A DNA stretch of 39,286 bases, from positions 1 through 39,286 of IMG/VR virus record IMGVR_UViG_3300043427_002842. One strand, written 5' to 3'. The position numbers and the translations under genes were made by a program. Positions 1,581-38,687 of this stretch are shown here, one piece after another. Position 1 is the first letter of the stretch. Each line of letters opens with the position of its first letter. Source of the stretch: a virus. The notes under the pieces are model-generated. The model searched no databases, was not told the DNA's origin, and saw only the letters and a list, made by a program, of their open reading frames with translations.

Positions 1581-1738
1581 GGGTTGGTTGTGGGTTTGCT
1601 AAAGATGCGCCGGCAGACCTCGAGAAGGGCCGCGGCGGGAATGCATGGGCTTTCGCCGTGATAGGCGCGCACGCCGGTCTTCTCGTTGTCCCGCGCGGCG
1701 AGCCATTGCGTGACGAGGTCGATGTCGTGGGTGGTCAT
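1577..1738 (-). CDS. Hypothetical protein, 53 aa
   Basis: An ATG at 1736-1738 overlaps the methyltransferase stop as ATGA, and the stop overlaps the ATG of the HTH gene in the same way. The product begins MTTHDIDLVTQWLAARDNEK and contains SPCIPAAALLEVCRRIF. It is a small helical protein with two cysteines and no recognised family. The double coupling is the main evidence that it is real. Confidence 0.6.
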   Translation of the reverse strand: MTTHDIDLVTQWLAARDNEKTGVRAYHGESPCIPAAALLEVCRRIFSKPTTNP

Positions 1739-3234
1739 GGTGCTTCCTCCATCAGCTCGCCAACGAGAACTCGGAAAGCTCGCTCTGCGGTGGCTGGCAC
1801 AACTCCATTGCCGAGGAGTCGCAGCTCATCGGTGCGATTGTCTGTGGAGACGTGCAGGACGGCATCGTCCAGCCGATGGGTAAGCCCATCAGCGTCTCGA
1901 CCCAGCGAGGGTTGAGTTTGCCGGTCGCCCTCGCTTCTACCTCCACATTCAGTTGCTTGTATTGAACTATGGTTGGATCTCGATGGCCGCTCTTGTGGTC
2001 TTTCGCTTGCGGCGTTGCCCACGTGGCTTGCTCGTTTAGATTTCTCACGCCATGTCCCTTGGCTCGCATCACCGCAATCTGCTCCGGTGTCTTCGGGCCT
2101 TGGGCATCGTGGGCTTGGGGCGTTGCCCAATTCTCGACCATCTCCACTTGCTGATTGATCGTCTGCGATTGCAGCACCAATTTGCCGCTCGGGGTTAGCC
2201 GATACGCTCGCTGCCCAGGCATCGCTGGAGCTCCTTCCTTGGTGAATAGCGTCTCGACCTTCGCTCCTGCCTCGTTGGCCTGCGGGGTTCGCCAACTCGC
2301 TTGATAAACCGGCGAATGAACCGCCTCCCGCAAGTTGCTCAACGCCTTGCGATTCTTCCTGCCGCCGCGCGTCTTGTTCGTCTCCGCAAATTCCTCCACC
2401 GGACGCACTGGCAGCGTGTCCATGGTTTGCGGCGTTGGCCACGACAACTCTTGGCGGCTCCCATGCGAACTGCTGCTCGCCGGGCCGGCTTGGCCATGGA
2501 GTTGCACCGCAATGGTCAGCGGTGTCCCGCAGCCGTTGCCGTTGTATCCCTTGGCCTTCATCGCCTCCTTGCGCTTGAGCCATGTCTCTGGCGACTCGCC
2601 ATCCTGCGAGACTTGAGCGTTCGGCGTCGGCCAAGATTGCATCGCCGCCATCGTTCCAAGCGGAATCGAATTGCGATGTTCCTGCGATTTGCCAACCGAG
2701 TTCTTCGACTCGTTGACGCTGATCGTAGGCCAAGATGAAGATCCTCTTCCTCTGGTGAGGCGCGCCGCATTCACTCGCGCTCGCCACGCACCACGTCGTT
2801 CGGTAACCCATTCCTGCCAAGTCTTGCAGCACGTCGGGAAGCCCAAGGCTGATATGTCCCTCGACGTTTTCAGCGAAACAGACACTTGGTCGCATTGCAG
2901 CAATTCCGGCTGCGATAAACGGCCAGAGGTGTCTTGAGTCCTCGGCGCCGAGTCGCTTGCCGGCGGCTGAAAACGGCTGGCATGGATATCCAAAAGAGAG
3001 GATGTCCACGCGGCCGTGAAACTCGGACCATGGGAAGGTTTTAAGATCCGTCCAGATAGGAGCTGAGTCCAAGAGTCCCGCTTCCATTTTAGAGACCAAG
3101 TTCGCGCAGGCGAAACTTTCGATCTCACTAAAAGCGATTGTGCGCAGACTTGGGATTGCTCGTTTAAGTCCGAGATCAATGCCTCCGTATCCGGCACAAA
3201 GGGAGACGTGTGTAATTGCTTTGGCAGTATCCAC
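1735..3234 (-). CDS. DNA (cytosine-5) methyltransferase, 499 aa
   Basis: This enzyme transfers a methyl group from S-adenosylmethionine to C5 of cytosine in DNA. Motif I (SLCAGYGGIDLGL) is at residues 11-23, motif IV GYPCQPFS has catalytic C85, motif VI is ENVEG (122-126), motif VIII is QRKRIF (161-166), and a motif X-like LLGNGVVPATAERAF lies near the C-terminus. Between VIII and X is a long repetitive stretch of LADA/VANA/LANP/VGNA units where the target-recognition region should lie. I choose the GTG at 3232-3234: it has GGAGA upstream and leaves a short N-terminus before motif I, whereas upstream codons give an arginine-rich extension overlapping the previous gene. The likely role is self-protection of phage DNA against host restriction. 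No partner restriction enzyme is seen. Confidence 0.92.
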   Translation of the reverse strand: MDTAKAITHVSLCAGYGGIDLGLKRAIPSLRTIAFSEIESFACANLVSKMEAGLLDSAPIWTDLKTFPWSEFHGRVDILSFGYPCQPFSAAGKRLGAEDSRHLWPFIAAGIAAMRPSVCFAENVEGHISLGLPDVLQDLAGMGYRTTWCVASASECGAPHQRKRIFILAYDQRQRVEELGWQIAGTSQFDSAWNDGGDAILADAERSSLAGWRVARDMAQAQGGDEGQGIQRQRLRDTADHCGATPWPSRPGEQQFAWEPPRVVVANAANHGHAASASGGGICGDEQDARRQEESQGVEQLAGGGSFAGLSSELANPAGQRGRSEGRDAIHQGRSSSDAWAASVSANPERQIGAAIADDQSASGDGRELGNAPSPRCPRPEDTGADCGDASQGTWREKSKRASHVGNAASERPQERPSRSNHSSIQATECGGRSEGDRQTQPSLGRDADGLTHRLDDAVLHVSTDNRTDELRLLGNGVVPATAERAFRVLVGELMEEAP

Positions 3235-3236
3235 AT
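1752..3236 (-). CDS. Overlapping same-strand frame with WPTP repeats (494 codons), possibly a second product
   Basis: A second open frame starts at an ATG only 2 bases from the methyltransferase GTG and stays open for almost its whole length. It carries six W-[PRA]-T repeats (SSWPTISVN, SWPTPNAQ, SWPTPQTM, SWRTPQAN, NWATPQAH, TWATPQAK) and ends with LNPRWVETLMGLPIGWT. Both features resemble proteins I know from phage methyltransferase loci. Each W-T unit is the same DNA as an L-A-D/N unit in the methyltransferase frame. It may be a genuine overlapping gene, a product whose real start lies further inside, or the shadow of repetitive DNA. Confidence 0.35.
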   Translation of the reverse strand: MWILPKQLHTSPFVPDTEALISDLNEQSQVCAQSLLVRSKVSPARTWSLKWKRDSWTQLLSGRILKPSHGPSFTAAWTSSLLDIHASRFQPPASDSAPRTQDTSGRLSQPELLQCDQVSVSLKTSRDISALGFPTCCKTWQEWVTERRGAWRARVNAARLTRGRGSSSWPTISVNESKNSVGKSQEHRNSIPLGTMAAMQSWPTPNAQVSQDGESPETWLKRKEAMKAKGYNGNGCGTPLTIAVQLHGQAGPASSSSHGSRQELSWPTPQTMDTLPVRPVEEFAETNKTRGGRKNRKALSNLREAVHSPVYQASWRTPQANEAGAKVETLFTKEGAPAMPGQRAYRLTPSGKLVLQSQTINQQVEMVENWATPQAHDAQGPKTPEQIAVMRAKGHGVRNLNEQATWATPQAKDHKSGHRDPTIVQYKQLNVEVEARATGKLNPRWVETLMGLPIGWTMPSCTSPQTIAPMSCDSSAMELCQPPQSELSEFSLAS

Positions 3237-3247
3237 TGCTGTCTCCG

Positions 3248-3466
3248 TTAGCAGTTCCCCCAGTGATGCCCGCAGATTGTGTCCGCCTCGTAGTCCAAGC
3301 GCTTATCCGCTTCCCACTCGGCATCTTCCTCCGGCGTGCGATGCGCGTAGGGATCATGCGGCACGCCGTAAGCCTTGCTGCAGTCCTCCGCGTCACGCGC
3401 CTCGATGTCCGCCTCGCGGCCCTCATCGCAGCAACGGTCGTCTGGGTCTCCGAGTTCGTAGCTCAT
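3248..3466 (-). CDS. Hypothetical acidic protein, 72 aa
   Basis: The product, MSYELGDPDDRCCDEGREAD..., is very acidic, with four cysteines and a C-terminal CGHHWGNC. A C/H-rich end could bind metal, but no full zinc-finger spacing is seen. The ATG at 3464-3466 overlaps the preceding stop as ATGA, which rules out the longer arginine-rich N-terminus. It ends 13 bp before the methyltransferase start, in the operon. Confidence 0.65.
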   Translation of the reverse strand: MSYELGDPDDRCCDEGREADIEARDAEDCSKAYGVPHDPYAHRTPEEDAEWEADKRLDYEADTICGHHWGNC

Positions 3467-4162: not shown

Positions 4163-4176
4163 AAGAAAGGCAAACC

Positions 4177-4192
4177 TTGGCATTACTTGGCA
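4177..4192. repeat. Two TTGGCA units spaced 10 bp
   Basis: TTGGCA at 4177 and again at 4187, start to start exactly 10 bp. They lie at the junction between the HTH gene and the 45-aa membrane gene, overlapping the end of the HTH coding region. They are part of the repeat family also seen at 4384-4494, 4818-4853, 6008-6023 and 38662-38687. Confidence 0.6.
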
Positions 4193-4377
4193 ACGTGGTT
4201 AAAAGTTCGCTGCGCCATGAATTTCTCGACCGCTTGGCGCGAGATGCGCGTGCCCTTATGCGGGCCGATGTTGAAAGCCGGAAGCTCTCCGCTCTTGATC
4301 CACGCGCGCACGGCGCGTTCGCCAACGCCCATTCCGCGGGCAACTTGTTTCACAGTCAGTGCAAGGTGGGCATGCAT
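4183..4377 (-). CDS. Excisionase-like/MerR-type HTH protein (HTH_17-like), 64 aa
   Basis: The product is MHAHLALTVKQVARGMGVGE, then RAVRAWIKSGELPAFNIGPH, then KGTRISRQAVEKFMAQRTF. This is the usual small winged-helix pattern: L-T-x-x-x-V-A as the first helix, RAVRAWIKSGELPAF as recognition helix and turn, and a wing with a conserved arginine. The family includes phage excisionases and small regulators. I choose the ATG at 4375-4377 because the upstream ATG at 4416 would translate the operator repeats. It is transcribed divergently from the 85-aa ribbon-helix-helix-like gene, the arrangement of a phage switch, and is the first gene of the long leftward operon. Confidence 0.75.
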   Translation of the reverse strand: MHAHLALTVKQVARGMGVGERAVRAWIKSGELPAFNIGPHKGTRISRQAVEKFMAQRTFNHVAK

Positions 4378-4383
4378 TACTGG

Positions 4384-4494
4384 GCCAAAGAATGCCAAAG
4401 ACTGCCAATAGCGCAAGAATTTTTTTTGGCATTCTTTGGCATGGGGTGAAAACCCTATTTGACATCCCTTGGCATCCGTTGGAGTCTATTGGCA
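4384..4494. promoter_or_regulatory. Divergent operator with nine TTGGCA-type units in 10-bp phase
   Basis: Between the divergent HTH and ribbon-helix-helix-like genes, GCCAAA/GCCAAT units read on the minus strand start at 4384, 4394 and 4404. TTGGCA units on the plus strand start at 4426 and 4436, and a further run starts at 4459 (TTGACA), 4469, 4479 (TTGGAG) and 4489. Within each run the spacing is exactly 10 bp. Sixteen bases at 4384-4399 and 4425-4440 are a perfect inverted repeat. The TTGACA unit is also a consensus -35 box for rightward transcription, though no good -10 follows. This looks like a cooperative operator controlling both directions. Confidence 0.7.
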
Positions 4495-4507: not shown

Positions 4508-4765
4508 ATGAGCACCCAGAAAGCCAGATATAAGGAGGACACCCGCAAGGGCGTCTTCGCCAACCTCAGCACCGACCTGCATGACCGCATGCACCGGCGG
4601 GCCGCAGCCGCAGATCATAAGGCTGCCAAGTATGTCGCCGTGGCGCTGGAGTTTTACATGGACCTCGAAGACGCCTTCGGAGGCCCATTGACCGAGCAGT
4701 TCCGGGCGATGATCCTGCGCAATGTCGGCGGCATGGCCGACAAGATGGAAAAGGCGCTCAAGTAA
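4508..4765 (+). CDS. Ribbon-helix-helix-like DNA-binding protein, candidate phage repressor, 85 aa
   Basis: I choose the ATG at 4508 because upstream codons translate the operator. After a charged N-terminus (MSTQKARYKEDTRK) comes a strand (GVFANLS) and two helices (TDLHDRMHRRAAAADHK, AAKYVAVALEFYMDLEDAFG). This beta-alpha-alpha order resembles MetJ/Arc-type proteins, although the match is by pattern only. A C-terminal helix follows (GPLTEQFRAMILRNVGGM). Proteins of this fold often bind tandem operator repeats cooperatively, and the 10-bp array lies directly upstream. I infer it is the switch repressor or an autoregulated DNA-binding protein; an unrelated small helical protein is possible. 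No Shine-Dalgarno is seen. Confidence 0.6.
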   Translation: MSTQKARYKEDTRKGVFANLSTDLHDRMHRRAAAADHKAAKYVAVALEFYMDLEDAFGGPLTEQFRAMILRNVGGMADKMEKALK

Positions 4766-4809: not shown

Positions 4810-4837
4810 TTGACAATGCCAACAGACGCTAAAGAAT
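4810..4837 (+). promoter_or_regulatory. Candidate promoter for the lipoprotein gene
   Basis: A consensus -35 TTGACA at 4810-4815 is followed after 16 bp by AAGAAT (4832-4837, four of six matches to TATAAT). Predicted transcription would begin about 4844, almost on the ATG at 4846, so the message may be leaderless. The -10 box and start lie inside the 10-bp repeat run starting at 4818, so a repeat-binding protein should block it. Confidence 0.45.
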
Positions 4838-4853
4838 GCCATCAAATGCCAAC
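4818..4853. repeat. Four-unit 10-bp phased repeat over the promoter
   Basis: GCCAAC at 4818, GCTAAA at 4828 (degenerate), GCCATC at 4838 and GCCAAC at 4848 are exactly 10 bp apart. They are the minus-strand orientation of the TTGGCA unit and cover the candidate -10 box and the start codon at 4846. Confidence 0.6.
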
Positions 4854-5427
4854 ACACACCACACGCATTACGGCACGCACGCTGTCTTTAATCGGCTTTG
4901 CCGCCAGCCAGTGGGCATCGGAGCGCCTTAACGGCAGCCGCCACAAGCGCCGCTACCGCGAGCTGATCACTGCGGGGCTTGTCCTGCATGAGTCCGGCGA
5001 GCTATATGCTTCCGCGCCAAAGATGCGCCGCGCGCTCGCCACCATCGCCAAGCACGCCGCTCCCTTGGCCTTGGTGGTGCTGCTCGCCGGCTGCGCCACA
5101 GATCCGGTGCCCGACCGCTACCGCACCGCGGAGCCCGTCGTCAGCATCGAGGTCGCCACACTGCCACCCGGCGCGCTCGTTTACCTTAACGCCGAATACA
5201 TGGGCACCTCGCCGGTCACAATCAAGCTGGTCGCCGACCAGTTTGGTAAATGGAAGCAAGACTCCATCATTCGCGCCGTGGTGCCGCACGACAGCGTTGC
5301 GTTCGAGGAAATGGTCTACCCGAGCGGCTACCGAGTGCCGTCCCGCGTCCTGCTGCGCGTGCCAGGGTATACGCACTGGTACAGCGCCACCCAGCCCAAG
5401 CCGCCGCAGCCCTTCGCCGTCAACTAA
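4846..5427 (+). CDS. PEGA-like lipoprotein, possible lysogenic-conversion or exclusion factor (193 aa; or 134 aa from 5023)
   Basis: The frame contains an excellent lipoprotein signal, MRRALATIAKHAAPLALVVL followed by LAGC, beginning at an in-frame ATG at 5023. After the cysteine a short linker leads to VSIEVATLPPGALVYLNAEY, the P-x-G-A-x-V-Y-L-N pattern of PEGA-type beta domains found in surface proteins. From 4846 the protein has 59 extra residues before the signal (MPTHTTRITARTLSLIGFAA...), unusual for an exported lipoprotein, so two products or a gene fusion are possible. An upstream ATG at 4795 would translate the repeats. It sits between the repressor candidate and att, where prophage-expressed surface genes are typical. 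I infer a role at the envelope of the lysogen. Confidence 0.7.
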   Translation: MPTHTTRITARTLSLIGFAASQWASERLNGSRHKRRYRELITAGLVLHESGELYASAPKMRRALATIAKHAAPLALVVLLAGCATDPVPDRYRTAEPVVSIEVATLPPGALVYLNAEYMGTSPVTIKLVADQFGKWKQDSIIRAVVPHDSVAFEEMVYPSGYRVPSRVLLRVPGYTHWYSATQPKPPQPFAVN

Positions 5428-5924: not shown

Positions 5925-5980
5925 CAGGGGTAGAGCAAAGATTAGAAATCCGCTGCTCTATCCCCTGAGCTACGGGAGCA
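5925..5980 (-). other. Candidate attP: 5' half of a tRNA-Arg(UCU) gene plus inverted repeat
   Basis: On the minus strand, 5979 to 5940 reads as the 5' half of a tRNA: GCTCCCG acceptor strand, TA, D-stem GCTC/GAGC around AGGGGATA, anticodon stem GCGGA and loop TTTCTAA with anticodon TCT. The 3' half is missing: the stem continues TCTTT instead of TCCGC and no acceptor complement follows. CAGGGGTAGAGCA (5925-5937) is the inverted copy of TGCTCTATCCCCTG (5954-5967) with one extra base. With the integrase next door, this is best read as the site matching a host tRNA gene. The exact crossover core cannot be set here. Confidence 0.6.
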
Positions 5981-6007
5981 AAGTTTGTTTTAGTCTGTTA
6001 TTGTGGT

Positions 6008-6023
6008 GCCAACAGATGCCAAC
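6008..6023. repeat. Two GCCAAC units spaced 10 bp, upstream of the integrase
   Basis: GCCAACAGAT is repeated exactly in tandem at 6008-6017 and 6018-6027, with a weaker GTTGAT at 6028. This is the minus orientation of the TTGGCA family, between the half tRNA and the integrase arm repeats. Confidence 0.55.
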
Positions 6024-6039
6024 AGATGTTGATTGATCT

Positions 6040-6108
6040 GCCACAGTCTGCCACATTGACTGCCACACTCGTGCCACAGTCCAGCCACAGTCGTCTTGAC
6101 TGTGGCAC
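6040..6108. repeat. Five GCCACA repeats, candidate integrase arm sites
   Basis: GCCACA starts at 6040, 6050, 6062, 6073 and 6084, spacing 10-12 bp, usually followed by GT or TT. An inverted TGTGGCAC is at 6101-6108. They lie between the candidate att core and the integrase start. This is the position and style of arm-type binding sites of tyrosine integrases, and binding here could also repress the integrase gene. Confidence 0.55.
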
Positions 6109-38627: not shown

Positions 38628-38661
38628 GACGTGGTGCGGCTTTCTGTCGTGGCGTGATCTG

Positions 38662-38687
38662 TAGGCAAATGTTGGCGTATGTTGGCA
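38662..38687. promoter_or_regulatory. Three TTGGCA-type units, 10-bp phase, upstream of the 71-aa gene and helicase
   Basis: TAGGCA (38662), TTGGCG (38672) and TTGGCA (38682) are exactly 10 bp apart, in the 66-bp gap between the zinc-ribbon gene and the 71-aa gene. It is the same unit and spacing as at the lysogeny switch, so the replication genes are probably under the same regulator. No strong promoter box is clear here (TTGATT is near). Confidence 0.6.

Follow-up and report, generated by a model that had tools for sequence, protein, structure and literature searches.

Genes and operator arrays of the early region

The window, that is, the entire stretch of 39,286 nucleotides of IMG/VR virus record IMGVR_UViG_3300043427_002842, carries two small genes pointing away from each other, a leftward gene for a 64-aa protein of the HTH type and a rightward gene for an 85-aa protein, the latter followed by a cassette gene and, further on, by an attP core (about 5940-5985) and then a tyrosine integrase gene. 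Toward the opposite end of the window, a gene for a 71-aa protein is followed by a gene for DnaB helicase. Short arrays of 10-bp units, here designated R1 to R5, are placed at these genes as follows.

4163-4192, minus strand: R2 operator array, upstream of a small leftward gene past the HTH gene; class-matched units are present there in relatives
4183-4377, minus strand: gene for the 64-aa HTH_17 protein, excisionase-like (HTH1; Pfam HTH_17, E 5.9e-13; PHROG excisionase)
4383-4412, plus strand: R1-left operator array, three units, before the leftward HTH promoter; a class-matched unit is kept in relatives
4384-4440, no strand assigned: perfect 16-bp inverted repeat, formed by two facing array blocks, the second of which is found in class A relatives only
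4422-4441, minus strand: R1-middle operator array, two units, from the matrix scan; class A only
4455-4494, minus strand: R1-right operator array, within the promoter of the 85-aa gene; TTGACA at 4459-4464
4508-4765, plus strand: gene for the 85-aa protein, a small DNA-binding protein of putative ribbon-helix-helix (RHH) type and the proposed array binder by operator co-variation; class A, strand motif RKGVFANLS
4817-4856, plus strand: R3 operator array, behind TTGACA at 4810-4815 and before the variable cassette gene; in relatives, flanks conserved and units class-matched
4846-5427, plus strand: cassette gene under R3, for a PEGA-domain lipoprotein (Pfam PEGA, E 1.1e-4); start ATG proposed at 4846
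6007-6026, plus strand: R4 array, two perfect units, between the attP core and the Int arm-like sites
38658-38687, minus strand: R5 array, three units, behind TTGATT at 38697-38692, upstream of the 71-aa gene and DnaB helicase

To the left of these features, a C5-cytosine methyltransferase gene (1735-3426, minus strand) is almost wholly overlapped by another long open frame of that strand (1752-3236, minus). Such an overlap is also found in a distant relative, L024 (5795-7450 and 5802-7433), and this second frame has a match of its own, to PHROG 1008, DNA methyltransferase (E 1e-19 and 7e-21).

Detection and architecture of the arrays

Exact TTGGCA pairs at a 10-bp lag occur four times in the window, versus 0 to 0.035 expected from Markov shuffles of order 1-3, and, with one mismatch allowed, 11 times versus 2.2-3.5 expected, the highest of 200 shuffles reaching 9, while the word TTGGCA is encountered 41 times versus 25 expected. 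The whole window was scanned with a 10-bp position weight matrix built from relatives alone, with the window excluded, and this matrix recovers R2, all three blocks of R1, R3, R4 and R5 at the coordinates listed above, with no further array above the 95% level of the shuffled maximum in the window. R4 presents the top two-unit score of the window (31.4), and R5 a three-unit score of 37.5, its units being class-matched in relatives; R2, taken alone, scores over the median level of the shuffles and below their 95% level.

A first-pass annotation of this DNA, made from the letters alone, had proposed a TTGGCA family phased at 10 bp at five places, and all five are recovered by the relatives-trained matrix; the comparison with shuffled sequence that it called for is borne out by the counts given above. 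TTGGCA itself stands as the core of the unit but not as the whole of it, which, by the matrix from relatives, is 10 bp long, with the consensus TGCCAACAGA (reverse, TCTGTTGGCA), repeated head-to-tail. Likewise, the nine units counted at 4384-4494 do belong to an array, but one made of three blocks in two orientations with no common register, the count having taken in degenerate units (GGCCAA, TTGGAG and TTGACA, the latter doubling as a -35 hexamer). The 16-bp inverted repeat described there is exact (4384-4399 / 4425-4440; GCCAAAGAATGCCAAA), and the array on the helicase side is present as described, save for its extent and strand, which had to be corrected to those listed for R5.

At R1-right, R3 and R5, TTGACA-like hexamers are overlapped by the arrays or stand immediately before them, and repression by occlusion is therefore the natural reading. 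The -10 elements at the array promoters are weak, and a promoter scan of the region returned one sigma-70-like site, not above chance.

Behind R3 lies a variable cassette: in relatives, this promoter-operator is followed by many small genes unrelated to one another. A role of the arrays in surface conversion, as was suggested from the lipoprotein of this phage, is unproven, the gene behind R3 being such a cassette, here that of a PEGA-domain lipoprotein.

Operator classes among the relatives

The relatives considered were about 55 metagenomic IMG/VR contigs encoding the 85-aa protein or its homologues, plus contigs reached through the HTH genes. The array positions recur among these, with R1 on both sides, R2 past the HTH gene, R3 behind the 85-aa gene and R5 at the helicase, arrays being located at matching control points in about 50 IMG/VR relatives. 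The earlier proposal of one operator family at early control points, with one-turn spacing, gains support from this comparison. The 10-bp lag is prominent at nearly every site in relatives and dominant at the promoter sites of classes A, B, and D, and at R1-right both TTGACA and class-matched units are kept across all classes.

The unit itself differs by class: classes A-C have TGCC(N)A, class D has GGACA/TGTCC, class E TGTCCATA and class F TGTCCGCA. A putative strand motif at the N-terminus of the 85-aa protein differs likewise: RKGVFANLS and RSVFANIS go with the TGCCNA units, RSVHANL with GGACA, RATVTLTP with TGTCCATA, and VTVSLLP with TGTCCGCA. The best reading of these pairings is that at least four operator specificities are represented in the family (classes A-C, D, E, and F), class E consisting of a single genome. 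Since class D is one clade, other genes co-vary with this class too.

The promoter and helicase operators follow the 85-aa protein

As to the protein that the operators follow, two HTH genes, HTH1 and HTH2 (27-30% identical), alternate beside the 85-aa gene. Phages of class A or B keep their class-typical promoter arrays with either HTH1 or HTH2, the units of R1, R2, R3, and R5 being unaltered when HTH1 is replaced by HTH2. The opposite exchange is presented by an HTH2 genome with a class E 85-aa protein, which possesses TGTCCATA arrays at R3 and R5; the cassette and 71-aa genes of this class E phage resemble those of class B phages, yet its R3 and R5 arrays are new. At R5 of L112 (class B) and L113 (class D), the flanks and the neighboring gene are near-identical, and the units are in each case class-matched. 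L212, in which the C-terminal third of the 85-aa protein is swapped and the N-terminus is of class B, keeps class B arrays.

In partial Mantel comparisons, the operator words correlate with the 85-aa distance given HTH at r = 0.83 (p = 0.001), versus r = 0.21 with HTH given the 85-aa protein, and for R5 alone the values are 0.40 for the 85-aa protein versus 0.10 for HTH. Models built solely from R1 and R3 sites assign the class of R5, several kilobases away, correctly in 36/36 genomes of classes A-C, D, and F, class E, which has no model of its own and scores nearest D, being excluded from the count.

Overall, it is with the 85-aa protein, rather than with the 64-aa HTH protein, that the unit of the promoter and helicase arrays changes, the separation of the two resting on the A/B and E genomes. 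Both proteins had been named as candidate binders from the letters alone; the candidacy of the 85-aa protein persists, while natural swaps remove the 64-aa HTH protein for the promoter and helicase arrays, and as a binder of all the arrays the latter is rejected for R1, R2, R3, and R5 by the HTH1/HTH2 swap.

Fold and homologues of the 85-aa protein

The 85-aa protein of the window has no match in Pfam, PHROG or PDB. Its class F homologue, L242, matches Pfam HicB PF05534, which we take to be an RHH domain, over residues 7-46 (E 5.7e-5; 23.4 bits versus a cut-off of 21). L242 shares 74% identity with L241, and L241 shares 60% with the class E protein, itself 44-45% identical, over 54-80 residues, to the proteins of classes B and D (single comparisons, E 2e-16 and 7e-22), and the window protein is tied to L242 through pairwise and multiple alignment. 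Because of the HicB match of L242 and this chain of homology, the 85-aa protein is called RHH-type, and its placement with the ribbon-helix-helix (MetJ/Arc) proteins via a homologue has good but indirect support, in line with the RHH-like reading offered at first pass.

AlphaFold models of the 85-aa protein (pLDDT 58 and 63) show two helices past residue 20 and no strand, and two fold searches with these low-confidence models gave no informative match. A home-made RHH profile did not separate most members of the family from shuffles, and profile comparison with host RHH_1 proteins gave a p of about 0.02 for class E and of 0.08-0.11 for class F. The protein possesses an extra conserved C-terminal third (FGGPxTEQ...); in one relative, L212 (2568-2828, minus strand), this third past FGGP is unlike that of all other homologues, and the N-terminal half is of class B. 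Named phage records contain no match to either the 85-aa protein or the integrase, and the bacterial genomes searched for the 85-aa protein contain none, the 388 Verrucomicrobiota genomes giving two doubtful weak matches.

The attachment site and the host

A 36-bp pattern of the attP core is found in 12 bacterial contigs, 11 of them labelled Verrucomicrobiota, and falls within a tRNA-Arg(TCT) gene in all ten contigs scanned; from this, the host is most likely a member of the Verrucomicrobiota. The one-turn repeats of R4 adjoin attP in the window, and relatives have 10-bp arrays there as well. The TGCCACA repeats at 6038-6108, between attP and int, have an irregular spacing of 10-12 bp and are probably integrase arm sites, as in relatives this word varies along with the N-terminus of the integrase; the irregular spacing and this dependence on the integrase N-terminus rule them out as members of the same family as the arrays.

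In HTH1-like phages (classes A, B, D, and F), the R4 units resemble the units of the phage's own 85-aa class. In HTH2 phages, R4 is a different 10-bp array, TTGCATCTGG-like, that is alike in classes A, B, and C and with several integrase types, and differs from the promoter arrays of the same genomes. As the att array of HTH2 phages is independent of the 85-aa class, one protein governing integration too is no general rule. The single regulator proposed earlier is supported for the promoter and helicase arrays, and integration is the more complicated case, as HTH2 phages differ at att whatever their 85-aa class. R4 admits two readings: the 85-aa protein may bind it in HTH1-like phages only, or an excisionase may read it, HTH1 sharing the unit.

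Many relatives (L145-L170) possess integrases of other types, whose genes point toward the 85-aa gene and not away from it. Relatives that combine such integrases with HTH2 have the second kind of 10-bp array, TTGCATCTGG-like, beside att.

Proposed role of the arrays and alternative explanations

The arrays are, in our assessment, probably operators of the 85-aa protein, a small regulator of the RHH type in a temperate phage of Verrucomicrobiota. Dimers would occupy these 10-bp units, which follow one another head-to-tail at every turn of the helix, so that neighboring proteins would line up on the same face of the DNA and could touch. The arrays span the divergent early promoters, with the HTH/excisionase-like gene to the left and the 85-aa gene itself to the right, and also cover the promoters of the next cassette gene and of the DnaB-helicase operon, and in HTH1-like phages an array of matching units adjoins attP as well. 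With arrays covering those promoters, the most likely action of the 85-aa protein is joint repression of early expression and of replication, presumably by promoter occlusion. Specificity would be set by the N-terminal half of the protein, all the promoter operators shifting together. Along the same line, the 85-aa protein would bind the arrays physically and act as a repressor, with a part in lysogeny or immunity. Autoregulation, along with control of the excisionase-like, cassette, and helicase genes, would fit an early-lytic or an immunity repressor. A more specific version is tentative, its chances falling a little short of even: the 85-aa protein may be the immunity repressor of widespread temperate Verrucomicrobiota phages, coating the one-turn arrays of all early operons, and heteroimmunity classes would arise via a few residues of the N-terminal strand.

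Of the other explanations, binding of all the arrays by the 64-aa HTH protein, as a recombination directionality factor that also regulates early transcription in the manner of Apl (186) or Cox (P2), would account for the att-proximal array tracking the HTH type, and it agrees with the HTH_17 and excisionase matches of this protein, whose best solved relative is 4j2n Gp37 (E 8e-4), presumably the Xis of Pukovnik. Proteins of the Apl/Cox type do bind one-turn repeats at both att and early promoters (PMC7498355). We nevertheless consider this improbable, as R1, R2, R3, and R5 do not respond to the exchange of HTH1 for HTH2, as HTH2 genomes carry at att a 10-bp array unlike that at their promoters, and as the operators change when HTH2 is retained and the 85-aa protein is changed (class E). 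A division of the arrays between two proteins, the promoters going to the 85-aa protein and R4 to the HTH1 excisionase, which might also compete at R1, their recognition being identical or overlapping as for lambda CI and Cro, is compatible with the 85-aa protein being the regulator and is a real, if lesser, possibility. It would explain why R4 is of the 85-aa type in HTH1-like phages (A, B, D, and F) and different in HTH2 phages; however, it requires that, in every class, the HTH protein has evolved in step with the 85-aa protein, and the pattern is accounted for as well if the 85-aa protein itself occupies R4 in HTH1-like phages.

Two further explanations are built on other known functions of RHH proteins. 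Partition proteins of this type bind short repeats near their own promoter, so that the arrays could be partition or segregation sites, with a ParR/ParG-like protein on iterons and the phage kept as a plasmid; but the 85-aa gene has no ATPase gene for a neighbor, the phage possesses a tyrosine integrase and an attP that matches tRNA-Arg, and the arrays are distributed over several separate promoters, including that of the helicase operon, which makes this very unlikely. That the 85-aa protein is a HicB/FitA-like antitoxin autoregulating a toxin-antitoxin operon, the remaining arrays being incidental, agrees with a weak FitA-like and a clear HicB domain match, but is hardly credible given that distant arrays change in step with the 85-aa protein; the gene beside the 85-aa gene differs between phages, so that there is no constant toxin partner.

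With the 85-aa protein as the regulator, the arrays provide a candidate master switch, together with a complete site list, for phages of a poorly studied bacterial phylum. The natural protein/operator swaps constitute a data set on joint specificity change of a small DNA-binding protein and its unlinked sites, usable to predict mutual exclusion among these phages, and, if the immunity-repressor reading is true, they would represent a natural series of re-targeted RHH repressors. A literature search of incomplete coverage returned neither a paper on lysogeny under an RHH immunity repressor nor one on repressors of Verrucomicrobia phages.

Comparison with known systems

Several known systems share some of these traits. 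The RHH regulators of the CopG/omega/ParR type bind repeats side by side and regulate their own synthesis, as the 85-aa protein would do here, and the latter is like these, and like the C-terminal domain of HicB (PF05534), in its putative RHH fold, as assigned by homology. Unlike these, its context is not plasmid copy-control, partition or toxin-antitoxin, and it possesses the extra C-terminal third (FGGPxTEQ...). Arc and Mnt of phage P22 are small RHH repressors that act on their own and neighboring promoters, each through one local operator, in the ImmI region. The likeness here is that of a small RHH-type protein of a temperate phage at its own and neighboring promoters, where it would act as a repressor, and the difference is that one protein is linked to head-to-tail arrays at several early operons.

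In the case of Apl and Cox, one small early protein links recombination to transcription. Apl of coliphage 186 is an HTH excisionase, with one-turn repeats at att and at pR-pL (PMC7498355). The arrays described here are like the Apl (186) and Cox (P2-like) sites in being head-to-tail, one turn apart, and located both between early promoters and at attP. Unlike Apl and Cox, which are HTH excisionases, the promoter arrays here follow an RHH-type protein, the excisionase-like HTH gene being separate, and arrays are also found at the helicase operon and the cassette gene.

Cluster A mycobacteriophages (L5, Bxb1) possess dispersed repressor sites that diverge along with the repressor (PMC6550527; PMC9283540). 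The sites of L5 are single, 13 bp long and mostly outside promoters, and the repressor is monomeric and two-domain (PMC6550527). The trait of one site family at several separated early operons is also seen here, for R1, R2, R3, and R5, in both the window and the relatives, and, as with the Cluster A repressors, one phage protein appears to be matched to many dispersed asymmetric sites, with joint divergence into specificities. Unlike in L5, the sites here lie within promoters as tandem 10-bp units, and a small protein of the RHH type is proposed to read them.
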